A stretch of DNA of 64,000 nt from an uncultured Sulfuricurvum sp. (GTDB lineage Bacteria > Campylobacterota > Campylobacteria > Campylobacterales > Sulfurimonadaceae): assembly GCA_903844635.1 (NCBI GenBank), contig CAIMUF010000004.1, forward strand, positions 1 to 64,000, read 5' to 3'. This document shows positions 1-12,681 of this stretch, one piece after another; positions within the stretch are counted from its first letter, which is position 1; the number at the start of each line of letters is the position of its first letter. The position numbers and the translations under genes were made by a program. The notes under the pieces are model-generated. The model saw only the letters and a program-made list of their open reading frames with translations. It was not told the origin of the DNA and did no database searches.

Positions 1-180
1 CCGAGTCATATCCACTTCTTTTGGAAACCACGTGTTGTTGAGCATCATTTCCCAAAGGTTATACGCCCATTGGTATTTGATGTTGTTAAGCTCAAAGATT
101 CCCGTTGGATTGCCGCCAAAAATCCGCCGATCATTCACGTGTTCGTTTGAAGATGGGTTGTAGATTTTTTTGCGTTTCAT
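1..180 (-). CDS. nrdB: Ribonucleoside-diphosphate reductase small (beta) subunit, N-terminal part
   Basis: The reading frame is open from the ATG at 180 to the window edge, giving the first 60 residues. It is not in the ORF track. The N-terminus contains [20 protein letters not shown] and then [10 protein letters not shown], which is typical of class I ribonucleotide reductase R2 subunits. R2 houses the di-iron/tyrosyl radical cofactor that the alpha subunit uses to make deoxyribonucleotides; the iron ligands lie beyond the window. AAAAAGGA sits 7-8 bases before the ATG. Identification rests on motif recognition of a fragment. Confidence 0.85.
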
Positions 181-199
181 AATGAATCCTTTTTGCGGT

Positions 200-481
200 T
201 TACCAAGGACCTTGGAACCTTGTTATTTTAATGGGAAGTTTTGCGGGATGTTTGGTCGATCGTCCTTGGACTCTTGCTCTCCATCGTTTAAAAGATGAAG
301 GCGTTTGGTGTGATTTCATCCATCTTTTAACCTGATTTTCACTCAAACCAAACTCACGTTCTATCGCTTCAAAGGGGGTGCGGTCCTGCCATGCCATTTC
401 GATGAGTCTATCCATGGTATCACTGCTTTTTTCGATTTTAACACCCGAGACATCATAAATTTTTAGTTCTTCAAACGTCAT
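200..481 (-). CDS. DUF2805 / TIGR03643 family protein
   Basis: This 93-residue protein carries the family signature: a helix-turn-helix-like stretch ([20 protein letters not shown], then [13 protein letters not shown], residues about 24-55) followed by the basic tail [18 protein letters not shown]. The family has no established biochemical role that I know of; the HTH-like layout and basic tail suggest nucleic-acid binding, which is inference. It lies 19 bases upstream of nrdB on the same strand, so the two are probably co-transcribed. Its ribosome binding site is weak (AAAAGAATAAAACC before ATG). Confidence 0.75.
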
Positions 482-552
482 GGTTTTATTCTTTTAATCT
501 AAATTGGCGTAGGCCAATAAGCAATACTTAAAGCCGTCGTACCTACGCTGAT

Positions 553-558
553 ATTATA
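553..558 (-). promoter_or_regulatory. Candidate -10 box upstream of the DUF2805-nrdB pair
   Basis: On the minus strand the 106-bp gap between the flavin reductase stop and the DUF2805 start contains a perfect TATAAT about 72 bases before the start codon. No convincing -35 is visible at 17 bases, which is common for Campylobacterota vegetative promoters. The element lies within a set of short inverted repeats (503-569). Confidence 0.35.
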
Positions 559-587
559 GGAAAACGGCTCTGTAGTTCGTAGAGTAT

Positions 588-1088
588 TTATGTCATTTTG
601 ATTTGAGAGATGGGTGTTGTTGTGCAGTACTGCCCACGCCCAAGGAAGAGAACAGGGATTGGAATTCTATTTTCTTGGGTGAGTGTGCTGGTGACATCGG
701 CGATAAAAAGAGTATGATCTCCGTTTTGATACGTATCGATAATGGTGCATTCGTATACAAAATCCGAATCGTCTAAAATTAAATTGCCATTATGATCATT
801 AGCAGAGGAAACAAGATTGCAAAACGTGAGCTTATCCACGCTGTCTCCATGAACTCTTCCTGCTTTATCGATGGTTTCATGATACGAAAAAGGTAAAAAG
901 TTCAGAGTAAAACTGCCATGTTCTTTGAGCATATTGTAGGTGATATTCTCATCACGTACCGCGATAGCATAACGAAACGGCTCACGGCTAATGGGCATGT
1001 GCCATGAGAGCGGCATGAGATTTTTTTGGCAACATAAGATCGCTGTAGAGCGAGGTTGTGCAGGTATGGTTGGCTGTTTGATGAGCAT
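588..1088 (-). CDS. Flavin reductase-like (FMN-binding split-barrel) protein
   Basis: This 166-residue protein resembles flavin reductase-like domain proteins: PLSWHMPISREPFRYAIAV near residues 26-45 is the typical flavin-contacting strand-loop, followed by SFTLNFLPFSYHETIDKAGR. Such proteins reduce FMN/FAD with NAD(P)H or act as flavin-dependent oxidoreductases; the substrate cannot be told from sequence. AAGGATATTCA precedes the ATG. It lies 18 bases downstream of the lipocalin lipoprotein gene on the same strand, so it may be the last gene of the lipid-modification operon and could supply reduced flavin to its FAD enzyme. That link is inference. Confidence 0.75.
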   Translation of the reverse strand: MLIKQPTIPAQPRSTAILCCQKNLMPLSWHMPISREPFRYAIAVRDENITYNMLKEHGSFTLNFLPFSYHETIDKAGRVHGDSVDKLTFCNLVSSANDHNGNLILDDSDFVYECTIIDTYQNGDHTLFIADVTSTLTQENRIPIPVLFLGRGQYCTTTPISQIKMT

Positions 1089-1106
1089 TGAATATCCTTA
1101 AAATGT

Positions 1107-1625
1107 TTAGGGCTGCTGTGTCGTCCAATAGAGCTTACTGGCATCGTATCCAAGAGCTGGCAAACGGTTAAGAATCGATTTTTTATCCGCATCACTGAGA
1201 ACTTTTGTTCTGCTGAGTATCCAAAGATATTTACGGCTAGGATCGCCTACTACGCTGTATTGATAGTTATCTCCCAGCATCAACACCCAATAATCTCCAT
1301 AAAAAGGACGAAAAAAGCTCACTTCGAGTTTGCTGTTATTGCTGTCTTTGAGTGTGTAGGCTCGACCTGTGGCTTCACCGCTTTGGACACCGTTGGTATC
1401 AAAGCATCGGTTGGTAACGGCTATATAGTCCTCTTTACCTTCATATTGGGCAGTTGCTCCTGCGCATCCTGTTTCAAAACGGTTTTCATAACGGGCGATT
1501 TCGATCCATTTTCCGCTATAGCGTGCTAGATCAACGTGTTCGACGGTGGCAAGAGGAGCGGATGGAGTTTTAGAGCATCCGCTTATAAAAATCAACATCG
1601 TGAGGGCTAAATAAACTATTTTCAT
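1107..1625 (-). CDS. Bacterial lipocalin, outer-membrane lipoprotein type (Blc-like)
   Basis: The 172-residue product starts with a lipoprotein signal peptide ending FISGC, so it should be lipidated at Cys17. The lipocalin signature follows: YSGKWIEIARYENRFETGC near residues 36-54, VTNRCFD in the middle and YLWILSRTKVL near the C-terminus. Bacterial lipocalins bind fatty acids or lysophospholipids in a beta-barrel. The lipobox residue after Cys is Ser, which favours outer-membrane sorting. The start overlaps the DUF3833 stop by 4 bases. The operon also contains a second lipocalin (5359-5874) lacking a lipobox. Confidence 0.88.
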   Translation of the reverse strand: MKIVYLALTMLIFISGCSKTPSAPLATVEHVDLARYSGKWIEIARYENRFETGCAGATAQYEGKEDYIAVTNRCFDTNGVQSGEATGRAYTLKDSNNSKLEVSFFRPFYGDYWVLMLGDNYQYSVVGDPSRKYLWILSRTKVLSDADKKSILNRLPALGYDASKLYWTTQQP

Positions 1626-2158
1626 TGTTTGTCCTTTATAATTGTAATGACGAGTTCTCCCACTTCGATCCCGAACTTTTTCATTTTCGAATGGTTTAAA
1701 ATAATACCGTCGCTTTGTAAATGAAGCCAGTCTTGTACATCAATGTCGATGGTGCTCTTGCCATAAGGAACTTTCATGGTGTAATCCAACATGACAGTAT
1801 TGCCGTTTGCAATCATGGATGCGTTACCGACAATGTCTCCTGCCGTGGCTATAAACTTTTTCTCTCCATTGGGAGTGAGTGTCCATGTACGGTGAAGTTT
1901 TTCACCGTCGTTGTAGATGAAATGTTCATCCAGCGTTCCGACACCGTTTTTATTCCAGCTTCCTACAAGATCACCTTTGAAAGTACGAACAATTTTACCG
2001 TTACGGTCTTTTACCATTCCATATGCCCGAAGTGGTCCATTAAAATAGCTTTGAGGGACAAACTCCGGAGAGGTATTTTGAAAATCCTCGATTTGCATTG
2101 ACGAGCATCCTCCTAGAAAAGTACACAGTCCAAGAGTTAGAAAAGTTTTGAATGTCAT
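1622..2158 (-). CDS. DUF3833 family lipoprotein
   Basis: This 178-residue protein has a lipoprotein signal peptide (TLGLCTFLGGCSS, lipidation at about Cys18) and then a beta-rich domain that I recognise as DUF3833, with PQSYFNGPLRAYGMVKDRNG and later GEKLHRTWTLTPNG. DUF3833 proteins are uncharacterised but are regularly encoded beside CFA-synthase-like, DUF1365 and flavin amine-oxidase genes in Proteobacteria, as here. A periplasmic or outer-membrane lipid-binding role would fit the two neighbouring lipocalins, but that is inference. The ATG overlaps the upstream methyltransferase stop by 4 bases. Confidence 0.82.
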   Translation of the reverse strand: MTFKTFLTLGLCTFLGGCSSMQIEDFQNTSPEFVPQSYFNGPLRAYGMVKDRNGKIVRTFKGDLVGSWNKNGVGTLDEHFIYNDGEKLHRTWTLTPNGEKKFIATAGDIVGNASMIANGNTVMLDYTMKVPYGKSTIDIDVQDWLHLQSDGIILNHSKMKKFGIEVGELVITIIKDKQ

Positions 2159-3381
2159 GATGAGAGTCCTTGATTAAGATGAATGTTGCCGTCACGTGTA
2201 AAAACGACTTGAACGAGATTGATATTTCGAGTTAAAAATCCTGCTTCACAATAGGTGAGATACAACCGCCACATTCGAATGAAATACTCATCAAATCCCA
2301 GCTTTTTGACTTCCTCAAGTTTTTTATGAAAGTTTTCATTCCATAGCTTGAGTGTTTTGGCATAGTCCTCGGTGAACTCTTCCATGTGCAAGAGGTTCAA
2401 GCGTGTATGGCGAGAGGTTGTTTCCAGAAGTTTGGAAACACTTGGGAGGTGCCCGCCTGGGAAAATATATTTTTGAATAAAATCGGTACCTCGGCAATAC
2501 GCATCGTAGCGTTGATCGGGGATTGTAATGATTTGCATCGCAATAACACCGCTTGGGGCAAGCAAAGATTCGCATTTTTTAAAAAATACATCGAAATACT
2601 CTCGCCCCACCGCTTCAAACATTTCGACCGCAATAATGGCATCATATTCGCCTTGCGCGTCGCGATAGTCTTGGAGCAGTATATCGATAGAGTCTTCAAC
2701 ACCATGTGTTTTGAAGCGCTCTTGTGAGAGTTTGAGCTGCTCATTGGAGAGGGTTAGTGTGGTGACTTTGGCATCGTATTCACGTGCGAGATGGGTCGCC
2801 ATTGATCCCCATCCTGAACCGATTTCCAGTACTTTTGCATTGGGTTTTAGGCGAAGTTTTTGCGCTAACAGATCGATTTTTCGTTTTTGTGCTTCATGAA
2901 GCGTTTCGTCTGATGAGGCAAAAACGGCAGAAGAATACATCATTGTTTCATCTAAAAAAAGTTTGAAAAAATCATTCGAAAGATCATAATGTTCTGAAAT
3001 ATTTTTACGTGAACGGGTTTTGGAATTTTTGCGCATCCAATGGCGTGCTCGGTTAAACTGTGGGAGGAGATTGTACAGCGACAGTTTTTTCTCATGTTCG
3101 CTGAGGGCTTCGAGTTGTTTGGCGTTGTGCAAGGCTAGGGTGATAAGTGAGGTTAAATCCTCACATTCAAAATCACCGTCCATGTAGCTCTCCGCAAATC
3201 CGATATCGCCATACAATGCCAGACGCTTAAAAAAGACACTGCGTTTGAGGGTAATACTGGCGTGTGGAGCCAATCCGTTTCCGTAGATTTTATGGGTTCC
3301 ATCAGGATACGTGACACTTAGATCGCCGCAAGTGAGTTTTTGCAAATAACGATGGCCCATACGATTGTAAAACCCTTTCAT
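2155..3381 (-). CDS. cfa: Cyclopropane-fatty-acyl-phospholipid synthase-like methyltransferase
   Basis: A 408-residue SAM-dependent methyltransferase of the CFA synthase family. The SAM motif is VLEIGSGWGSMA, preceded by SEHYDLSNDFFKLFLD and followed by AVEMFEAVGREYF, all typical of the family. These enzymes transfer a methylene or methyl group to the double bond of unsaturated acyl chains in membrane phospholipids. I moved the start from 3510 in the ORF track to the ATG at 3381 (MKGFYNRMGH), because it makes an ATGA overlap with the DUF1365 stop and avoids a 130-base overlap. In this gene setting it could be a CFA paralogue making methylated or furan-type acyl chains rather than cyclopropanes. 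Confidence 0.9.
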   Translation of the reverse strand: MKGFYNRMGHRYLQKLTCGDLSVTYPDGTHKIYGNGLAPHASITLKRSVFFKRLALYGDIGFAESYMDGDFECEDLTSLITLALHNAKQLEALSEHEKKLSLYNLLPQFNRARHWMRKNSKTRSRKNISEHYDLSNDFFKLFLDETMMYSSAVFASSDETLHEAQKRKIDLLAQKLRLKPNAKVLEIGSGWGSMATHLAREYDAKVTTLTLSNEQLKLSQERFKTHGVEDSIDILLQDYRDAQGEYDAIIAVEMFEAVGREYFDVFFKKCESLLAPSGVIAMQIITIPDQRYDAYCRGTDFIQKYIFPGGHLPSVSKLLETTSRHTRLNLLHMEEFTEDYAKTLKLWNENFHKKLEEVKKLGFDEYFIRMWRLYLTYCEAGFLTRNINLVQVVFTRDGNIHLNQGLSS

Positions 3382-4130
3382 AGAATTTCCTTGTGTATTT
3401 GATCTTGTGTTCTTGGTTTGTACCATGTGAGACCTCCTTTGAGTTTGAGTTTTAGGGTTTGCCAAAGCGTGCGTGTGACGACAAACAACGTTAAAAATGT
3501 GTGCGCACACAACAGCGAGCGAATGGATGCCGTGGTAAACACTTTGGCTGAGCCACTAAACTGAGCCAGCAAAAGGAGAGCATTATCGAGGTGCAGTTCA
3601 ACCGCGAGTCCAAAATGTTCTGAAGTGTATTCAATGACAAAACGGTAGTCGCCCTCATAACCCATAAAAGGTGAAACGTACATTGACTTGGGAGCAAAAC
3701 CGATGTAGCGACCTTTTTCGTCTTTTTCTAGAGTCATTGGATACAAAACGCGGCCGCCGTTATAGTTGTGCACCTCTGCGATTGCATGCGTGATACGATT
3801 CTCGCTATCTAGCAGCAGGAGCATACTGATGGGATTAAAGACAAAATTGAACATTCGAGGCAGGGTTAAAAAGCGCAATTGATACGGTTTCTCCCATTCA
3901 AGAGCCTCGATAAGATCGGTGGTATTTTGCAAAAAATCATCCTGTACTCCGAAATGATCACGAGCGTTAAAGCTCATGATATTCATCCCATTGTGTTTAA
4001 ATAAGGAGGCATGAAGGGACTTTAAGTCATTTACATCGATGTCTAAAAAAAAGTAATCGTAAGTAAACTGATGCACTTTTGGAGCGAATCGTTTATGAAA
4101 TATTTCTCCTTCATAAAAATGGTGACTCAT
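3378..4130 (-). CDS. DUF1365 family protein
   Basis: This 250-residue protein matches DUF1365: it opens with EGEIFHKRFAPKVHQFTYD, has FLTLPRMFNFVFNPISM in the middle and AEVHNYNGGRVLYPM, followed by FAPKSMYVSPFM. The biochemical role is not established. The family is consistently found between a flavin amine-oxidase-like gene and a CFA-synthase-like gene, the arrangement seen here, so it probably acts on the same acyl-lipid substrate. A hydrophobic stretch near the C-terminus (SLLCAHTFLTLFVV) suggests membrane association. Start and stop both overlap neighbouring genes by 4 bases. Confidence 0.88.
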   Translation of the reverse strand: MSHHFYEGEIFHKRFAPKVHQFTYDYFFLDIDVNDLKSLHASLFKHNGMNIMSFNARDHFGVQDDFLQNTTDLIEALEWEKPYQLRFLTLPRMFNFVFNPISMLLLLDSENRITHAIAEVHNYNGGRVLYPMTLEKDEKGRYIGFAPKSMYVSPFMGYEGDYRFVIEYTSEHFGLAVELHLDNALLLLAQFSGSAKVFTTASIRSLLCAHTFLTLFVVTRTLWQTLKLKLKGGLTWYKPRTQDQIHKEIL

Positions 4131-5362
4131 AAGGGAGAACCTATGAGTTTCGCAATTTCATTGGCACTCCACAGACCATCTTCATGAAATCCGTAGCGCC
4201 AATACGCACCTGCATAATAGGTGTGATTGACCCCGCTGATCTCTTCACGCCGTTTTTGTGCATCGATGGCTTGGGTGTTGAATTGGGGATGTTCATACGT
4301 GATGGCTTCGATGACGTTTGAGAGGGTGGAGGTTTCGTTAAGAGAGACAAAATAGTCTTTTTTAGAGGTTATGTTTTGGAGACGGTTGAGCCAATACGAC
4401 AGAGTAACACTATCAGACTTCCCGTTGTTTTTATAATTCCATGCAGCATATATTTTTTTATCGGGATAAAGCGCTTGAGTATCATTATGCAGTACCGCGT
4501 CGTTAGCTTTGTACGAAAAAGCACTGAGTATATTTTTTTCATTTGCAGTTGGGCTTTCTAAAAGTGCTAATGCATCGGGTGCATGAAGCGCCATAATAAC
4601 GGCGTCATAGCTACTGGTACGACTGTTTTCGAAAATCAGCTCAACCCCAGTAGGGGTGCGGCGAATCGATGCGACATCCGAATTTACAATGATGTTCCCT
4701 GAAATATGGGGAATAATTTTCTCGACGTAGTTTTTTGAACCACCGCTGACCGTGAGCCATTGATGCTGAGTGCTGACTCCAAGCAAGCCATGATTTTTAA
4801 AAAATTGTAAAAAAGTTCGTGAAGGAAATGCTTCCATCTCGTTACTGGGTGTTGACCAAATAGCAGCCCCCATTGGCATAAGATAGCGCTGTTTGAAAAC
4901 ATCACTGAAAGACTGGAGATAATCACCCAGAGTTTTATCTAAATCCTTTGAATTTGACTCCACATCACGGTTTGCTTTCTTGTTGAAGCGGATAATGTCT
5001 AAAATCATTCGATAGTGGGAGAGTGAAAAAAGATTTTTCGTTTGGAAAAAAAGTCCTCCCAACGTTTGAGCATTGTACGCCACATCGCAAAAAGTATCCC
5101 AAAATCCAAAACTCATATCACTTTTTTCGATGTTGACATTCAAACGCTCGAAAAGTTTCGTAAGAAGCGGATACGTAGGATGGTTAAAAACCAAGAACCC
5201 AGTGTCAACGCCGAAAGTTCTATTTTCATCCGTGACCATCGTAGTACGGGCATGCCCTCCTAGACGATGCTCTTTTTCATACACATCGACCGTGTGTTGA
5301 GAGCTTAGTAAATAAGCACTGCCCAGTCCGCTAATGCCTGCGCCTATGATGGCTATTTTCAT
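4127..5362 (-). CDS. FAD-dependent amine-oxidase-like oxidoreductase
   Basis: The 411-residue protein starts with a Rossmann dinucleotide-binding motif (IAIIGAGISGLGSAYLL) followed by the E..LGGHART segment seen in FAD-dependent amine oxidases and phytoene-desaturase-like proteins, and ends with a GAYWRYGFHEDGLWSA segment where such proteins close the FAD site. It has no signal peptide, so it is cytoplasmic or peripheral at the inner membrane. In similar clusters this enzyme is thought to desaturate or oxidise a fatty acyl chain; that role is inferred from context. The gene overlaps lipocalin and DUF1365 by 4 bases on each side. Confidence 0.88.
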   Translation of the reverse strand: MKIAIIGAGISGLGSAYLLSSQHTVDVYEKEHRLGGHARTTMVTDENRTFGVDTGFLVFNHPTYPLLTKLFERLNVNIEKSDMSFGFWDTFCDVAYNAQTLGGLFFQTKNLFSLSHYRMILDIIRFNKKANRDVESNSKDLDKTLGDYLQSFSDVFKQRYLMPMGAAIWSTPSNEMEAFPSRTFLQFFKNHGLLGVSTQHQWLTVSGGSKNYVEKIIPHISGNIIVNSDVASIRRTPTGVELIFENSRTSSYDAVIMALHAPDALALLESPTANEKNILSAFSYKANDAVLHNDTQALYPDKKIYAAWNYKNNGKSDSVTLSYWLNRLQNITSKKDYFVSLNETSTLSNVIEAITYEHPQFNTQAIDAQKRREEISGVNHTYYAGAYWRYGFHEDGLWSANEIAKLIGSPL

Positions 5363-5874
5363 TGGTATCGTCCTTGTTTGTCTTGAGGTGTAAAAATAAG
5401 TCGTTTCGTGTCCATTGCATTGGTTAAAAGCGTTAGCACACGATCAAGTTTAGGTTTGGAAAGTATCGGTGTTCGGCTCATAATCCATACTTGCTGCATA
5501 TCTGGGTCTACAATGACTGCATGAGAATAACTCTCATCCAAATAAACAACATAGTAGTCACGACTGAAAACCCAAAAGTAGGTCATTTTCAGTTTGGAAA
5601 CATTATTGGGCAGTAATGCTGCTGCTATTCCTTTGTACGTGATCAAATCTCCACCGATAATGCGGTCAAAACATCGGTTGGTTACCTCGTATTGTTTGTC
5701 TTTGGTGAGAGTGTATTCGACCGTAGCTGCGACACAATTTTTTTCGAAATCGTTGTAAGTGCGAGCTACTTCAAACCACAATCCGCTAAATTTTTGAGGA
5801 TCGACATAGGAAACAGGGGGGAGAGTAGAAGCAGAGGTGAATAATGCTATCAATAACATAAAAAAGATTTTCAT
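5359..5874 (-). CDS. Lipocalin family protein, secreted non-lipidated type
   Basis: A 171-residue lipocalin with FSGLWFEVARTYNDFEKNC near residues 29-47, VTNRCFDR, and QQVWIMSRTPIL near the C-terminus. It has a signal peptide (MKIFFMLLIALFTSAST) but no cysteine at a lipobox position, unlike the lipocalin at 1107-1625. It is therefore predicted to be soluble in the periplasm. AGGAGAG precedes the ATG. It begins the most tightly coupled part of the operon and overlaps the FAD oxidoreductase gene by 4 bases. The pairing of a soluble and an anchored lipocalin suggests carriage of a lipid across the periplasm (inference). Confidence 0.87.
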   Translation of the reverse strand: MKIFFMLLIALFTSASTLPPVSYVDPQKFSGLWFEVARTYNDFEKNCVAATVEYTLTKDKQYEVTNRCFDRIIGGDLITYKGIAAALLPNNVSKLKMTYFWVFSRDYYVVYLDESYSHAVIVDPDMQQVWIMSRTPILSKPKLDRVLTLLTNAMDTKRLIFTPQDKQGRYQ

Positions 5875-5948
5875 TTTAACTCTCCTAAAAATTATAAATT
5901 CAAATCTTATTTTAAAGAGATAAATCTATTTTTCGTAGAGTTTTTTTG

Positions 5949-7178
5949 TCACTTGATTTCGTTATACCGCCATAAAACGATCATACTGAGTATTTTAAAA
6001 AAAATGGGTGCTAATGCGTACAGGCTTATTAAGGCGATGAGCGATTTAGCAGAAGGGGAAGCAGGGCTGAAATCAAACCAGCCTAAAATACTAAACGAAA
6101 TTCCTACCCCAAGTGCAAGAGAGAGTTTCGTACCCATTCCCCAAAGACCAAATAAGACTCCGGAGAGATGTTCTCCCTGCCTTGCAAACCGCTGGGCGAG
6201 GTCGGCTTGCAAAGAGGAAGAAAGAACCAAATCCGCTCCCAAACTAAATCCAGAAAATGCAACGATAAGAATAAACCAACTGCTGTCACCTTCGCCCAAA
6301 AAGGGGACGAAAGAAAAAGCAACGCAGGCCAGTGCCATCGATGCTATCCAACTGTTTTTTTTACTCATACGTCGCGATAGCGCATTCCAAAAAGGCAAGG
6401 CCGCAATACCTGCAGAAAAATACAGCAGTAAAAATAAGCCGCTTTTTTCGGGAACTTTGAGGATGTGAGAGACATAATATAAAAAAAGTGTTGAGGGTAC
6501 AGCGTTCGCCAGTGCGTTTAAAAAATAGGCGATAACCAAGTTTGAACCGTTACTTTGGAAAACAATTTTTATCCCCTCTCTAAAAGGAGTGGTGTGAACA
6601 GGAAGTTTAGAATTTGGAACCCCCCAGAGAATCAGCATAAGGGCTATGGGCAGGCTTATGAGCAGTACAACATAAAGTGATTCGAGTGTTTTACCATTTT
6701 GGTCTGAAATACCAAGGGTGTATGGGATGACGAGTGATGCCATCATGCCTAAAATAGCGAGTATTTCGCGCCATGAGGAGAGCAGCGTTTTTTCGTGATA
6801 GTCGGTAGTGATTTCGCTACTTAAAGCCATATACGGGACACTGATCAAACTCCATGAGATGTATACCATCATGGAAAAAACAAAGAGCCAAAGTGCGGGA
6901 TGTGAGGCAGGGTGTATAAGGGCATAATATCCTATTAAAAGGGTGAGAGAACCAACAACCATAAAAGGCTTGCGTTTTCCAAGGCGGTCACTGTAATGAC
7001 CGATAATAGGATCAAAGAGCATATCAATACTTCGTGCAAGCAGTAAAATAATCCCAACCGTAGTGACATCAACACCGACATCCGACGCGTAAAACGTAGG
7101 GAGATACATAAAAAGCGGTATACCAACCACCGAGAGAGCAAACCCAAGTGCTCCATAAGAGGGATAAACCACTTTCAT
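5949..7178 (-). CDS. MFS_2 / GPH-like membrane transporter
   Basis: This 409-residue protein has about 12 hydrophobic segments and the MFS_2 loop signature between TM2 and TM3 (DMLFDPIIGHYSDRLGKRKP). The MelB/GPH branch includes sugar-cation symporters and lipid transporters such as LplT-like and Mfsd2-like proteins. The substrate is unknown, but the gene shares a TGATG stop/start overlap with the NTF2-like gene and lies within the lipid-modification operon, so a lipid or lipid precursor is more likely than a sugar (inference). A 74-bp gap separates it from the downstream lipocalin gene. Confidence 0.82.
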   Translation of the reverse strand: MKVVYPSYGALGFALSVVGIPLFMYLPTFYASDVGVDVTTVGIILLLARSIDMLFDPIIGHYSDRLGKRKPFMVVGSLTLLIGYYALIHPASHPALWLFVFSMMVYISWSLISVPYMALSSEITTDYHEKTLLSSWREILAILGMMASLVIPYTLGISDQNGKTLESLYVVLLISLPIALMLILWGVPNSKLPVHTTPFREGIKIVFQSNGSNLVIAYFLNALANAVPSTLFLYYVSHILKVPEKSGLFLLLYFSAGIAALPFWNALSRRMSKKNSWIASMALACVAFSFVPFLGEGDSSWFILIVAFSGFSLGADLVLSSSLQADLAQRFARQGEHLSGVLFGLWGMGTKLSLALGVGISFSILGWFDFSPASPSAKSLIALISLYALAPIFFKILSMIVLWRYNEIK

Positions 7179-7600
7179 CAGAGTGCTTTTATCTTATTTT
7201 TGAGCAAGCGTAAAATCCAGCCAAGCAGAGGTATCTTTTCATATACGTTGGCAGCGGCATCCCAGTAATCGATATGAGAGAGAACAAGACCTTTTTCATC
7301 AAACAAAACATGACTGAGCCCTTTAATGCATTCTTGCGGACTATTAGGGCTACGAGAATAGAGAAACTTCCAGCGAATGTAGCCGCTTTTATGGTTGCCC
7401 ATCGATTCTAGGATGATAAATTTAGGAGCATAAAGCGTTGCATACATGTGCCGAAAAACCGTGATGATCGCCTCTGTGCCGTAAACTTTTTGAAATGGAT
7501 CTTCAAAAAGAGCATTGGGTGCAAAAGCATCGTTAAATTCTTTATCTTTGAAATCGGGTTTCAGTGTCGCGAAAAATTCACTGTAGAGTTCGATCATCAC
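7178..7600 (-). CDS. NTF2-like (SnoaL-type) family protein
   Basis: A 140-residue protein with the NTF2/SnoaL cone-shaped fold pattern: FNDAFAPNALFEDPFQKV near the N-terminus, a central helix, and GLVLSHIDYWDAAANVYEKI near the C-terminus. Members are isomerases, cyclases or binding proteins for hydrophobic ligands; catalytic residues cannot be assigned confidently here. It overlaps the SDR gene by 4 bases and the MFS gene by 1 base. A role in processing the small lipid product or precursor of this operon is inferred only from context. Confidence 0.75.
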   Translation of the reverse strand: MMIELYSEFFATLKPDFKDKEFNDAFAPNALFEDPFQKVYGTEAIITVFRHMYATLYAPKFIILESMGNHKSGYIRWKFLYSRSPNSPQECIKGLSHVLFDEKGLVLSHIDYWDAAANVYEKIPLLGWILRLLKNKIKAL

Positions 7601-8352
7601 AGAGCCTTTTGGGTCAATCGAAGGGATAAAGAGTAGGGGAAAAATCGAATCAGCGATAAAACAAAGGTCAAGAATTTCGGAAATCGAATCTCAAAATCGG
7701 TGGTTTTCTCCAGAGCATCGGCAATCGTTTTGGCAGCTTGTGAGGGTTCCATAAGCTGAGGCATGTCGAACGTATTTTTTTGTGTCAATCTTGTTTTCAC
7801 AAAGCCGTGATTGATGATGCGGACATTTATTCCATGGGATTTGAGTTCAGGTGCAATGGATTGGGCGAGATTAACCAGTGCTGCTTTTGGTGCACTGTAC
7901 GCGCTCGCGTAAGGAAGACCGAAATACGAAGAAAGACTGGAATTCCAAACCCACTCTCCGTATCCTTGACTGACAAAATACGGTGAGAGTGGAATCATAA
8001 TACGTACCGCACCCATGTAATTGGTTTGCATCATCGTTTGAAATTTTGTCTCATTCCATTCATTCACTTTCATAACATCGTAGCTTCCTGCATTGTAAAC
8101 CCAGCGGTCTAAATATCCAAACGCTTCCCATGCTTGTTGGGTGATATGTGCAAAATCCCCCTCTATGGATACATCTAAATCCAGCAGCACCAAGCGATCG
8201 AAATAGGCATTTTTTAATTCATTCAGCTGAGAAGAACTTTGCGCATTTCGTGAACTGGCAACAACGTTATGCCCATCTTCCAGCCACCGTTTCAACAGTT
8301 CCAACCCGATTCCGCTGCTAGCTCCTACGAGCCAAATATTTAAAGTTTTCAT
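7597..8352 (-). CDS. Short-chain dehydrogenase/reductase
   Basis: A 251-residue classical SDR. It has the NAD(P)-binding glycine motif GASSGIG at about residues 10-16, an arginine after strand 2 (SSRN) suggesting NADPH preference, NAG at the end of strand 4 (VYNAGSYD), a catalytic Ser in WNSSLSS and YSAPK as the Tyr-x3-Lys pair. It presumably reduces a carbonyl or oxidises a hydroxyl group in the pathway encoded here. Its start overlaps the glutathione peroxidase stop (TAATG) and its end overlaps the NTF2-like gene by 4 bases. Confidence 0.88.
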   Translation of the reverse strand: MKTLNIWLVGASSGIGLELLKRWLEDGHNVVASSRNAQSSSQLNELKNAYFDRLVLLDLDVSIEGDFAHITQQAWEAFGYLDRWVYNAGSYDVMKVNEWNETKFQTMMQTNYMGAVRIMIPLSPYFVSQGYGEWVWNSSLSSYFGLPYASAYSAPKAALVNLAQSIAPELKSHGINVRIINHGFVKTRLTQKNTFDMPQLMEPSQAAKTIADALEKTTDFEIRFPKFLTFVLSLIRFFPYSLSLRLTQKAL

Positions 8353-8891
8353 TAGAGAAGTTTTTCGATGTCTGAAGCTATCGATTCAGGAGATGTTGAG
8401 GGAGCATAACGCTTGATGACTTTTCCGTTTTGATCGACAAGAAATTTTGTAAAATTCCATTTAATCGCTTCACTTCCTAAAATCCCTTTCGCATTTTGTT
8501 TTAGATGGGTGTACAGTGGATGGGCATTGTTTCCGTTTACATCGATTTTTGCAAACATGGGAAACGTTACACCATAGCTTATACGGCAAAAGTTTTCGAT
8601 CCCTTTTTCATCCAGCGGCTCTTGTCCGGCAAACTGATTGCACGGGAATCCTAATACGGCAAAGCCTTTTGATTGGTAGGATTTATAGAGTTTTTCTAAT
8701 CCTTCGAACTGCGGCGTAAATCCGCATCCGCTTGCAGTGTTGACAATGAGCAAGACTTTGCCCTTGTACGGTGCCAAAGTAGTTTTTTCATGATGAATGG
8801 TGACGACTTCAAAATCGTAAAGTGACTGGGTTGGTGTTGCCATAAGTGTGCTCCATGTAGTGATTAATAAGATAAAACGTTTCAATTTCAT
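8352..8891 (-). CDS. Glutathione peroxidase family protein, exported
   Basis: The 179-residue protein has the family motifs NTASGCGFTPQ (peroxidatic Cys), LGFPCNQFAGQEP (Gln and second Cys) and IKWNFTKFLVD (Trp and Asn of the catalytic tetrad). Such bacterial enzymes usually use thioredoxin rather than glutathione and reduce lipid hydroperoxides. An N-terminal hydrophobic stretch (RFILLITTWSTLMATP) suggests export to the periplasm. It is the first gene of the long minus-strand operon, so peroxide repair appears to be coupled to acyl-chain modification. AAAAGGC precedes the ATG. Confidence 0.9.
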   Translation of the reverse strand: MKLKRFILLITTWSTLMATPTQSLYDFEVVTIHHEKTTLAPYKGKVLLIVNTASGCGFTPQFEGLEKLYKSYQSKGFAVLGFPCNQFAGQEPLDEKGIENFCRISYGVTFPMFAKIDVNGNNAHPLYTHLKQNAKGILGSEAIKWNFTKFLVDQNGKVIKRYAPSTSPESIASDIEKLL

Positions 8892-9321
8892 AAATAAGCC
8901 TTTTTTATTGAATTATTTGCCATTCCGCATAAAAAAGAGGAATGAAATCGGCAGATAACAGTAAATCCCTCCAGTGAAGTTTCATCTTAGTAAACAGCTA
9001 TTTAGTTTATTTACAGGAATGAATTGAAAATTATAAAATGACAAGCAATTTATTAGTACCATTTTTTTGTCGTTTAAACCATTAAAAAAACTGTCGTAAT
9101 CGAAAATACTTAGAGACGTCCTCAGATTAATAGTGACTAATTTATGCAATAAAACTCATAAAATAACATTAAATATTGATCAAAAATGGGAAAATATAGA
9201 TAATAATTCATTCGGATATTTTTTATTGAACAAAAATCTAACATTAAACGGTATATTCGGAGATTTACAAGGGGAAGTGATGTATAATTTTTATTAAAAT
9301 TTAAAGCAAAGTACTCAAATT
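8892..9321. other. 430-bp divergent intergenic region between the lipid operon and pga
   Basis: This AT-rich region separates the minus-strand glutathione peroxidase gene from plus-strand pgaB. I see no credible ORF or RNA gene. It must hold promoters for both directions. For pgaB a TATAAT lies at 9283-9288, about 35 bases before the first ATG, without a good -35. Near the minus-strand start there is a 6-bp inverted repeat CATTCC/GGAATG (8921-8926 and 8939-8944) that could be an operator or hairpin. No pgaA fragment is present. Confidence 0.5.
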
Positions 9322-11379
9322 ATGATTCTATCATCACCCACAAAAAATGACCATAATATGCTTAAACCACTACTAAAATTAATCTTGATAGTGATAGGTG
9401 TTGCAAGCAGTTATGTACTGGCAAATGACCTGCCTAATGTGTGCAGCCGAGATCAAAAACCCAATGAGTTTACGATCCTGAGCTATCATGAAATAGCCGA
9501 TAAAAGTAAAACATTGGATTCAACCTATGCGGTTACACCTTCAAATTTTGATCACCAGATGCATTGGTTGATGGATAACGGGTATCACTTTATTGGCATC
9601 AATGATATTTTAAAGTACCGTAAAAGCGGAAAAAAATTGCCGGCTAAATCAGTTTTGATCACGTTTGATGATGGCTATCAATCCGTATATGCTAATGCCT
9701 ATCCTGTACTCAAAAAATACAAAATTCCCAGCGTCATTGCATTGGTTGGCAGTTGGCTGCTTAAGGAAGATAAGGTCGATTTTAGTGGGGTTATGATTCC
9801 GCGCAGTGAATTTTTAAGCCAAAAAGAGATCAAAGAGATGGTAAGTAGTGGGCTTGTAGAGGTTGCAAGTCATTCGTATGCTGCACATAAAGGTATACAA
9901 GGCAATCCGCAAGGAAGTATGCAGCCAGCGATAAGAACACGACAATGGCTGAGTGAGAAACAAGCTTATGAAGATGAAAAAGCGTATGAGGAACGTATCT
10001 ATAATGATTTAGCGGAAAATAATAGGTTTTTAAAACACTATACCGGACAAAAACCTCGTGTTATGGTGTGGCCGTATGGACATTACAATAGCAAAGTACG
10101 CAAAATTGCAGAGAAGTTAGGGATGCCTATCGGATTAACATTGGATGATGGCAGTAATACTGCCATCACACCGCTGTGGGGACTACGACGTATTTTGGTT
10201 GAGCATAAAATGACACTTCCGGATTTAGAACTCAACATGTGGGTGAGAAATGCTAACTATACGGACGATGCTCGCACCACAAAAGCTGCACATATTGACT
10301 TAGATTACATTTATGATGCAGATCCGGTTCAGCAAGAAAAAAATCTAGGTGATTTACTTGACCGTATCAAGAATTTAGGTGTTAATACGGTTTATTTGCA
10401 GGCTTTTGCTGATCCCGATGCCAACGGTGCAGCTGACTATGTCTATTTTCCCAATCGTAACATACCGATGAGGGCTGATCTGTTTAATCGAGTTTCTTGG
10501 CAAATTTCAACACGCACACAAGTCAAACGTATTTATGCCTGGATGCCGATGATCGCATGGCAATTACCAGAGAATAATCCAGCAGTCAAAGATACGGTTG
10601 TGACATTGCAGGTTGATCCGACTCATCTCAATATGGGGTATCCACGGTTATCTCCTTTTTCACCTAAAGCACGTACAGTGATCAAAGAAATTTACGAAGA
10701 TTTGGCAAAATCAGCTTATATAGACGGAATATTATTCCATGATGATGTTACGTTGTCCGATTATGAAGATGACAGTTCGGCAGCTCATGAACAATATAAA
10801 AAATGGGGATTGTCGCAAGATGTTATTCAAATCAGAGCCGATAAAAAACAGTTTGCGAAGTGGACACAACTGAAAACTGATTATTTAGATGAATTTGCGA
10901 TGCAATTGGCTCAAATTGTACGAAACGAACAACCAGGACTAAAAACCGCACGTAACCTGTATGCACAAGTCGCACTGAACAAGGATGCCCAAGAATGGTA
11001 TGCACAGAGTTTGCACGAATCAATCAAGCACTATGATTACACCGCTATTATGGCTATGCCGTATATGGAACAAGCTGATAATGCACGAGAGTTCTATGAT
11101 AAAATTGTTCATAATGTCAAACAAGAGCAATGCGGGCTTGAACGTACAGTAATGGAATTACAAACGGTTGATTGGAGAAAAGATAACGAGGCGATCTCAT
11201 CTAAAGAGATGAGTGATACAATGGGTCACTTGTATGATTTGGGTGTTCATCATATTGCGTATTATCCCGATAATTTGTTCAAAAACATTCCTGATGCCGA
11301 CAATATGAAACAAAATTTTGGACTTAAAGCATTGCGTATGCATACGTTAATTCCAAGCAGTACAACCTCCGACAAGTAG
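9322..11379 (+). CDS. pgaB: Poly-beta-1,6-N-acetylglucosamine N-deacetylase
   Basis: The 685-residue protein matches PgaB. The N-terminal half is a CE4 polysaccharide deacetylase: YHEIAD near 55, FDDGY at 115-119 (catalytic and metal Asp) and SHSYAAH with metal His at 184 and 189. The C-terminal half (about 315-680) is the glycoside-hydrolase-like domain, with LGVNTVYLQAFADPDANG and GILFHDDVTLSDYE. It partially deacetylates PNAG in the periplasm before export. The signal peptide fits the second Met better (codon 13, 9358; MLKPLLKLILIVIG); neither start has a clear SD. There is no lipobox Cys, unlike E. coli PgaB, so it may be soluble or anchored by an uncleaved signal. Confidence 0.93.
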   Translation: MILSSPTKNDHNMLKPLLKLILIVIGVASSYVLANDLPNVCSRDQKPNEFTILSYHEIADKSKTLDSTYAVTPSNFDHQMHWLMDNGYHFIGINDILKYRKSGKKLPAKSVLITFDDGYQSVYANAYPVLKKYKIPSVIALVGSWLLKEDKVDFSGVMIPRSEFLSQKEIKEMVSSGLVEVASHSYAAHKGIQGNPQGSMQPAIRTRQWLSEKQAYEDEKAYEERIYNDLAENNRFLKHYTGQKPRVMVWPYGHYNSKVRKIAEKLGMPIGLTLDDGSNTAITPLWGLRRILVEHKMTLPDLELNMWVRNANYTDDARTTKAAHIDLDYIYDADPVQQEKNLGDLLDRIKNLGVNTVYLQAFADPDANGAADYVYFPNRNIPMRADLFNRVSWQISTRTQVKRIYAWMPMIAWQLPENNPAVKDTVVTLQVDPTHLNMGYPRLSPFSPKARTVIKEIYEDLAKSAYIDGILFHDDVTLSDYEDDSSAAHEQYKKWGLSQDVIQIRADKKQFAKWTQLKTDYLDEFAMQLAQIVRNEQPGLKTARNLYAQVALNKDAQEWYAQSLHESIKHYDYTAIMAMPYMEQADNAREFYDKIVHNVKQEQCGLERTVMELQTVDWRKDNEAISSKEMSDTMGHLYDLGVHHIAYYPDNLFKNIPDADNMKQNFGLKALRMHTLIPSSTTSDK

Positions 11380-11388
11380 GAAGAATTT

Positions 11389-12681
11389 ATGACCACTTTT
11401 ATTATATTTTTGCATTTAATATGGCACGTATTGTTAGGCTTTATATTTTATTATCCATTATTCATGTCAAGTTTATGGATCGTTGGGGCAATCTTTTTTT
11501 ATTTTAAAAATGAGAAACCCTATCTTAAATATATTATTCCACCTCTTAGAGATGGTGAAAGTTGGCCCGGAGTCAGTATTTTGATCCCATGTTACAACGA
11601 AGGTCAAAATGCTATCGAAACTATTTCGTATGCTCTTAATGTAAAATATCCAGAATTTGAAGTGATCGCCATTAATGATGGGAGTAAAGATGACACTTTA
11701 GAGATATTGCTGGAGTTGGCAAAAAATAATCCAAAGTTAAAAGTGGTTAATTTAGCCGAAAATCAGGGTAAAGCTTTGGGCCTCCAAGCAGGTGCACTGG
11801 TAGCAAAATATGAATATTTGATCGGTATCGACGGGGATGCTTTGATTGATGAATATTGTGTTTATTGGATGGTGAAACATTTTATTCGCTATCCAGAAGT
11901 TGCTGCCGTTACAGGAAATCCTCGAATACGCAATCGCACAACGTTGTTGGGTAAAATTCAAGTAGGTGAATTTTCTTCTATTGTCGGTATGATCAAACGA
12001 GCACAGCGTAGTTTTGGACGAATATTTACCGTTTCAGGAGTCATTACAGGATTTAGAAAGGCAGCGGTACATGAAGTAGGCTACTGGAGTCCGGACATGC
12101 TGACTGAAGATATTGATATTACGTGGAAACTGCAAAGTAACGGTTGGGATGTACGCTTTGAGCCTCGTGCTTTGGTGTGGATTTTGATGCCGGAGACGTT
12201 AAGCGGATTATGGAAACAACGCTTGCGTTGGGCTATGGGCGGTGTTCAAGTCATGCTTAAAAACTTCAAGGTTTTATTTATGCCCAGACAAACTCATCTC
12301 TGGGGTTTGATGGTTGAGCTAATGCTCAGTACGGTTTGGGCGTACAGTATGGTATTGGTGTTTTTAGTTTGGATCATTAGTTTGTTTGTGCCGGTCACGT
12401 ATTTAATGCCTCAACAATCCCCAATTTTACCAGATCAAACCAGCGTGATTCTAATCGGTGCATGTTTGGTACAGTTCGGTGTGAGTAAATGGTTGGACGG
12501 TCATTATGATAAAGGTTTGGGGAAAAATTATTTTTGGATGATTTGGTATCCATTTGCCTATTGGCTCCTTAATTTGTTTACTGCGGTAACGGCTCTTCCA
12601 AAAGTGTTGTTTGGTAAAAAAGGTCGAGCTCGTTGGGTTAGTCCTGACCGTGGTGCACATCAACAGGTCAAAAAAGGTTAA
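11389..12681 (+). CDS. pgaC: Poly-beta-1,6-N-acetylglucosamine synthase (GT2)
   Basis: A 430-residue processive family 2 glycosyltransferase in the inner membrane. Two N-terminal TM segments precede the catalytic domain with ILIPCYNEG, AINDGSKDDT, IGIDGDALID (DxD-like), TEDIDITWKL (TED catalytic base) and QRLRWAMGG (QxxRW). TM segments follow at about 305-345 and 385-415. It polymerises UDP-GlcNAc to PNAG. It starts 9 bases after pgaB with AGGAAG upstream and is followed within 5 bases by pgaD. Cyclic-di-GMP control is known for PgaCD in E. coli; nothing in the sequence proves it here. Confidence 0.94.
   Translation: MTTFIIFLHLIWHVLLGFIFYYPLFMSSLWIVGAIFFYFKNEKPYLKYIIPPLRDGESWPGVSILIPCYNEGQNAIETISYALNVKYPEFEVIAINDGSKDDTLEILLELAKNNPKLKVVNLAENQGKALGLQAGALVAKYEYLIGIDGDALIDEYCVYWMVKHFIRYPEVAAVTGNPRIRNRTTLLGKIQVGEFSSIVGMIKRAQRSFGRIFTVSGVITGFRKAAVHEVGYWSPDMLTEDIDITWKLQSNGWDVRFEPRALVWILMPETLSGLWKQRLRWAMGGVQVMLKNFKVLFMPRQTHLWGLMVELMLSTVWAYSMVLVFLVWIISLFVPVTYLMPQQSPILPDQTSVILIGACLVQFGVSKWLDGHYDKGLGKNYFWMIWYPFAYWLLNLFTAVTALPKVLFGKKGRARWVSPDRGAHQQVKKG

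Follow-up and report, generated by a model that had tools for sequence, protein, structure and literature searches.

A Sulfuricurvum gene cluster that probably encodes a Ufa-type furan fatty-acid pathway under LytS/LytTR control

Gene content and promoter architecture suggest that a cluster of 12 co-directional genes (positions 200–8891, minus strand) in an uncultured Sulfuricurvum sp. is probably a Ufa-type furan fatty-acid operon under the control of a LytS/LytTR two-component system. The window analyzed here covers 64,000 bases from the start of a contig of 67,979 bases, which belongs to a 2.67-Mb draft genome of 86 contigs. Furan fatty acids are membrane lipids that scavenge singlet oxygen, and they have so far been linked to the sigmaE-ChrR response, in which the furan lipid itself is needed for ChrR turnover. 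An apparent replacement of that regulator is an added point of interest. The explanation as a whole draws on gene content, homology, an active-site signature, cluster conservation, the absence of extracytoplasmic function (ECF) sigma factors and of ChrR, co-occurrence and linkage of the two-component system, and a shared promoter motif.

The three central genes correspond to a known pathway. The Rhodobacter pathway begins with UfaM (RSP2144), which methylates cis-vaccenoyl phospholipids; UfaD (RSP1091) then desaturates the methylated lipid, and the DUF1365 protein UfaO (RSP1090) closes the furan ring by adding O2-derived oxygen (PMC7380195). The first-pass annotation had pointed correctly to these Rhodobacter singlet-oxygen genes in proposing a furan or methyl fatty-acid system, and homology supports the proposal. 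The flavoprotein gene (4127–5362, minus strand as throughout the cluster; PF01593) is a ufaD homologue and predicted FAD-dependent acyl desaturase, the DUF1365 gene (3378–4130; PF07103, E = 3.3e-51) is a ufaO homologue encoding a candidate furan-forming monooxygenase, and the third gene (2155–3381; PF02353, E = 1.8e-91) is a ufaM homologue predicted to encode an S-adenosylmethionine-dependent acyl methyltransferase of the CMAS family. UfaM would add a methyl group at C11 of phospholipid-bound cis-vaccenoyl chains and form no cyclopropane ring, UfaD would add a second, conjugated double bond, and UfaO would insert O2-derived oxygen, with closure of the furan ring. The resulting lipid would scavenge singlet oxygen, the peroxidase Gpx would clear the peroxides that result, and the lipocalins, MFS_2 and DUF3833 proteins would transport or repair damaged acyl chains.

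These genes lie in a compact array. Ten genes in one direction had been named before, and all ten are present, with names that agree with Pfam (GSHPx, adh_short, SnoaL_2, MFS_2, Lipocalin_2, Amino_oxidase/NAD_binding_8, DUF1365, CMAS, DUF3833 and Lipocalin_2). Upstream of ufaD lie gpx (glutathione peroxidase, 8352–8891; PF00255, E = 2.5e-40), an SDR oxidoreductase gene (7597–8352; PF00106, E = 4.3e-35), an NTF2/SnoaL-like gene with a GTG start (7178–7600; PF12680, E = 3.8e-6), an MFS_2 (GPH-type) transporter gene (5949–7178; PF13347, E = 1.3e-65) and lipocalin A (5359–5874; PF08212, E = 3e-30), while DUF3833 (1622–2158; PF12915, E = 1.9e-59) and lipocalin B (1107–1625; PF08212, E = 3.5e-41) follow ufaM. 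The coordinates also bear out the reported stop/start overlaps of 1–4 bases at nearly every junction (gpx/SDR 1 bp, SDR/NTF2 4 bp, NTF2/MFS 1 bp and, beyond a single 74-bp gap between MFS and lipocalin A, 4 bp at each of the next five). The start of ufaM was placed at the ATG at 3381, which forms an ATGA overlap with the DUF1365 gene, and not at a far GTG. The proposed limit of ten genes did not hold, since the set runs on through a flavin reductase gene (588–1088; PF01613, E = 7.2e-23) after an 18-bp gap and a DUF2805/TIGR03643 gene (200–481; TIGR03643 above cut-off) after a 106-bp gap.

The arrangement is not chance: the core order SDR-(NTF2)-MFS-lipocalin-ufaD-ufaO-ufaM-DUF3833 recurs amid different flanks in most of 24 other Campylobacterota DUF1365 loci, and the same order is found in named Sulfuricurvum, Sulfurovum and Arcobacteraceae contigs. 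DUF1365 occurs in 24/397 sampled Campylobacterota genomes and in 48/104 genomes of the Arcobacter-containing family (47 over cut-off). It is present in 0/9 other sampled members of the window's genus, so its distribution within the genus is patchy. The closest UfaO found (69% identity) is encoded in a Sulfuricurvum metagenome-assembled genome (MAG) where the order from gpx to DUF3833 is identical and a flavin reductase gene lies in the same locus. Two DUF1365 loci (L050 and L053) are present in a Sulfurospirillum MAG (G195), one with ufaD-ufaO-ufaM-DUF3833 on a 3.2-kb contig and one with ufaD-ufaO-gpx and no ufaM. The ufaO match in Arcobacter MAG BM102 (L038/L065) has an internal TAA, reflecting either a sequencing error or a pseudogene.

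The sigmaE-ChrR pair that governs this gene set in Proteobacteria is missing here. Proteobacterial ufa clusters adjoin sigmaE-ChrR in Pseudoalteromonas and Phyllobacterium, a cupin-type or anti-sigma neighbor in Azospirillum and Paracoccus, and a MerR regulator with photolyase in Aeromonas and Salinivibrio. A Sigma70_r2 search of the window's genome found no ECF sigma factor, matching only a 623-aa sigma70-family protein of RpoD size and a 229-aa FliA-like protein beside flagellar genes. ChrR (TIGR02451) had no match in the same genome and none over cut-off in the 397 genomes of the phylum sample; the one Cupin_7 match was rejected as ChrR because this 118-aa protein is a cupin alone and lacks the anti-sigma part. 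The first-pass annotation had noted that neither a ChrR/sigma pair nor a photolyase accompanies the cluster and had concluded that regulation must differ. The first observation extends to the whole genome and the conclusion stands, with a LytS/LytTR system and a shared motif found instead, but the putative regulon does include a photolyase gene, located on a different contig.

That contig (C77) carries in a row hemH, a gene for a CrtD-like flavoprotein, a LytS-type histidine kinase gene, a LytTR response regulator gene, DUF523/1722 and photolyase, and the kinase-regulator pair lies beside photolyase, DUF523 or hemH in many Campylobacterota. The kinase is present in 52/397 genomes, including 24/24 of those with DUF1365 (hypergeometric P = 2e-24, kinship ignored), and in 72/104 genomes of the Arcobacter-containing family, including 47/47 with DUF1365 over cut-off. 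It is also physically linked to the ufa genes, within the same locus of <20 kb, in 5/24 survey loci and 7/16 held-out named loci. The CrtD/carotenoid-desaturase-like flavoprotein gene almost always adjoins the LytS kinase gene (C77, L057 9425–10852; L139–L158), and its product might be part of the sensing system.

A single promoter motif connects the two sets of genes. Among 46 upstream regions of ufa operons and kinase-regulator operons, one motif stands out (log-likelihood ratio 199.9, compared with 63–69 in simulated controls), and it precedes operons of both kinds. Its consensus, from 55 distinct sites, is ATMAACTRACA-n8-MTACnAAA-n16-TATAAT with fixed spacing. When trained on kinase-regulator promoters only, a model ranked the ufa promoters higher than a background of 571 further upstream regions (P = 5e-7, or P = 1e-8 when site position and orientation were fixed), and many of the best-scoring "background" matches proved to belong to lipocalin A or to other genes of the set. 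Of 49 sites that score at least 14 bits in 16 held-out named ufa loci, 35 are no more than 200 bp upstream of such a gene. Flavin reductase homologues in other genomes carry the motif as well. K-mer counts over upstream regions recovered mostly ribosome-binding-site and coding-start words; only the probabilistic motif search with controls was informative. A generic sigma70 scan found no excess of promoter-like sites.

We scanned the window (127,900 positions) with a 51-bp model from whose training all sites of its own genome had been held out. The three best positions, all of them minus-strand, lie upstream of the cluster and in two of the three gaps between its genes. Rank 1 (P2, 5908–5958; 36.5 bits, −10 TAAAAT) is a putative promoter/regulator site in the 74-bp gap, rank 2 (P1, 9029–9079; 19.2 bits, −10 TATAAT) lies before gpx, and rank 3 (P3, 552–602; 14.5 bits, −10 TATAAT, an exact match to the restricted pattern) lies in the 106-bp gap before DUF2805; the fourth-best position reaches only 10.6 bits. 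The 74-bp gap thus holds a second predicted promoter, for lipocalin A-ufaD-ufaO-ufaM, which explains the sole internal gap noted among the ten genes. Genome-wide scans were made with IUPAC patterns, and the full pattern has six matches in the 2.67-Mb genome, compared with none for a reversed control; three of the six are P1, P2 and P3. A near match lies on C77, ahead of hemH and the kinase-regulator genes. One-mismatch matches at C62 and C36:783 were dropped because they scored below zero with the full model.

Together, these patterns lead us to favor, with moderate confidence, a model in which Campylobacterota rewired the singlet-oxygen/furan regulon by replacing sigmaE-ChrR with LytS/LytTR, which would probably sense light, porphyrin or membrane oxidation and, through the shared 50-bp promoter element, directly control the furan operon, gpx, ferrochelatase and photolyase. 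Light or an oxidant would reach the membrane LytS-type kinase, and the LytTR regulator would bind a site directly upstream of the −10 box before gpx, lipocalin A-ufaD and DUF2805. Furan lipid, peroxidase, ferrochelatase and photolyase would then be made together, with ferrochelatase lowering photosensitizing porphyrin. LytTR sites usually consist of two 9–11 nt repeats 11–13 nt apart with no common consensus (PMC4847170), and autoregulated LytTR operons carry sites just upstream of the promoter (PMC6193735). The system described here resembles such direct-repeat systems in its membrane histidine kinase, its LytTR regulator and, at its own operon, a site directly ahead of the −10 region. The 21-bp period of the motif fits LytTR repeats and spacers without proving them, although the repeats here are imperfect. 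A literature search found no described LytS/LytTR target in photo-oxidative stress or lipid synthesis.

Several observations count against LytS/LytTR control. The two-component system reaches beyond the ufa-bearing genomes (52 genomes as opposed to 24), and the related genomes in these co-occurrence counts are not independent. The score of the gpx site is modest once the −10 box is excluded. No strict LytTR consensus is recognizable in the motif. Its one match to LytTR geometry is an internal period of 21 bp, and the autocorrelation peak at 13 bp is nearly as strong. One possibility, which we regard as doubtful though deserving of weight, is that the lipid pathway is as described while another regulator binds the motif, so that LytS/LytTR is a co-regulated passenger with photolyase and hemH. 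The missing LytTR consensus and the 13-bp period would suit this alternative, but many genomes have the motif before the kinase-LytTR operon itself, the arrangement that an autoregulated LytTR system would show (PMC6193735), and the two-component system is present in every sampled genome with DUF1365 above cut-off.

We now return to the furan pathway itself and to the identity of its product. UfaD of the window shares 35–42% identity with proteobacterial UfaD proteins whose genes adjoin those for DUF1365 proteins or ChrR regulators, but only 18% with the CrtD-like, carotenoid-type flavoprotein of its own genome; its closest solved structure is LkcE. The first-pass annotation had named two sequence outcomes that would speak against its proposal, a methyltransferase placed with cyclopropane synthases and a flavoprotein placed with unrelated amine oxidases, and neither occurred. 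UfaO, the sole DUF1365 copy in the genome, whose gene overlaps ufaD by 4 bp, is more diverged, at 23–29% identity to proteobacterial DUF1365 proteins, so its product could differ. This divergence gives some room to the unlikely alternative that the enzymes make a related lipid (a methyl-branched diene or a hydroxy, keto or epoxy acyl chain) and not the known furan. However, H12, R14, P100, N122, Y130, K148 and S153-P154 of UfaO are invariant in 14/14 compared proteins, including those of Paracoccus and Azospirillum, and gene order and partners are unchanged. The AlphaFold model of UfaO is confident (predicted local distance difference test score 86.9) and has no match in the PDB at E below 0.001, so no cofactor can be assigned from the fold; its best matches, all weak, are lipid- or haem-binding beta barrels (lipocalin, nitrobindin and CpcS-like).

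In a methyltransferase tree, a branch supported at 96/96 separates all 20 ufa-type enzymes, including that of the window, from nine cyclopropane-synthase-type enzymes and two further CMAS enzymes, although the reference sequences are ufa-cluster and ChrR-linked genes that stand in for the assayed enzyme. Of the 20, 19 lie beside DUF1365 or in a ufa-type cluster, and the Sinorhizobium one lies beside a FAD gene only. In the alignment, the position of E. coli Cfa His266 is Gln in 20/20 ufa-type enzymes and His in 11/11 other CMAS proteins; MFEHVG becomes M[FI]EAVG, and Tyr317 is retained. In E. coli Cfa, His266 is a ligand of the bicarbonate that removes a proton to close the cyclopropane (PMC11387697), and its replacement by Gln would therefore fit a methyltransferase that leaves an alkene rather than a ring. 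A clustered ufaM of Halomonas yields 11-methyloctadec-12-enoate in E. coli (PMC12089945). It is very improbable that the CMAS protein is an ordinary cyclopropane synthase in a general membrane-stress operon: Pfam and NCBIfam do label it CMAS/cyclopropane synthase-like (below every NCBIfam cut-off) and it is the sole match of its kind in the genome, but the tree and the His-to-Gln change separate it from the cyclopropane synthases, an identity rejected on these grounds, and its gene is strictly partnered with ufaD and ufaO.

The cluster thus resembles the UfaM-UfaD-UfaO pathway of Rhodobacter sphaeroides and Rhodopseudomonas palustris (PMC7380195) in its homologous methyltransferase, flavin desaturase and DUF1365 protein. 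It differs in having a single operon that encodes the three enzymes together with lipocalins, Gpx and a flavin reductase, in its occurrence in Campylobacterota, in the strong divergence of UfaO, and in not being under sigmaE-ChrR. Relative to the sigmaE-ChrR (ECF11) singlet-oxygen regulon (PMC6852236; Shewanella RpoE2, PMC4336711), nearly all of gpx, hemH, DUF523/1722 (ybgA), photolyase, NTF2, SDR, ufaD, ufaO, ufaM and DUF3833 are in common, while the window's genome has no ECF sigma factor or ChrR, uses a different upstream site, and encodes LytS/LytTR within the gene set. The Shewanella RpoE2-ChrR regulon includes periplasmic gpx and hemH2, ybgA-phrB through cfa, and a photolyase-related gene (DPRP) (PMC4336711). 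A full pathway without an ECF sigma factor in one lineage would let the scavenging role of furan lipids be separated from their signaling role, and LytS/LytTR, with its DNA site and regulon defined, becomes a candidate for a new photo-oxidative stress sensor.

Accessory genes of the cluster also have counterparts in other ufa systems. The window's Gpx, which has a hydrophobic N-terminal segment and is likely periplasmic, corresponds to Shewanella PgpD, a periplasmic protein that depends on sigmaE2 (PMC4336711). The flavin reductase resembles flavoredoxin and the small component of styrene monooxygenase; the reductant of UfaO is not known (PMC7380195), and this co-clustered protein, a named candidate electron donor, may supply it. 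The NTF2/SnoaL family also adjoins ufa genes in gammaproteobacteria, and an MFS gene lies within ufa clusters of Azoarcus and Paracoccus. The SDR protein is the family counterpart of RSP1087, which is an SDR too; RSP1088 has a P. syringae homologue with a lipoprotein annotation (PMC5507510). In the window, the DUF3833 protein and lipocalin B each have an N-terminal Cys and are likely lipoproteins. By analogy, and as a further caution about the accessory roles proposed above, the lipid itself may not require SDR, MFS_2 or DUF3833, given that furan synthesis in Rhodobacter did not depend on RSP1087–1089 of that operon (PMC7380195).

The surroundings of the cluster and of the motif hold additional features. 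An Rfam search of positions 1–12500 gave no match. A ribonucleotide-reductase small-chain gene starts at 180 on the same strand, downstream of the cluster. On the plus strand, 9322–12681 encodes a PgaB-like protein (polysaccharide deacetylase and GHL13 domain) and a PgaC-like family 2 glycosyltransferase, a pair that diverges from the ufa operon and is probably a poly-N-acetylglucosamine operon; a weaker motif match (10.6 bits, 9157–9207) is oriented towards it. Elsewhere in the genome, a motif site of 30.7 bits precedes thiD (phosphomethylpyrimidine kinase) at C77:88765–88806 (L177 1501–1542), and thiE/thiD lie directly upstream of the ufa cluster in one locus (L031), as does a thiD-like gene in another (L048), which hints at a thiamine link. 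The motif also precedes a gene for an EAL-domain (cyclic-di-GMP phosphodiesterase-like) protein at C36:3532–4292 (L174), and in a congener (G303, C15:124765; L169) a gene that looks homologous immediately precedes hemH and the kinase-regulator genes.

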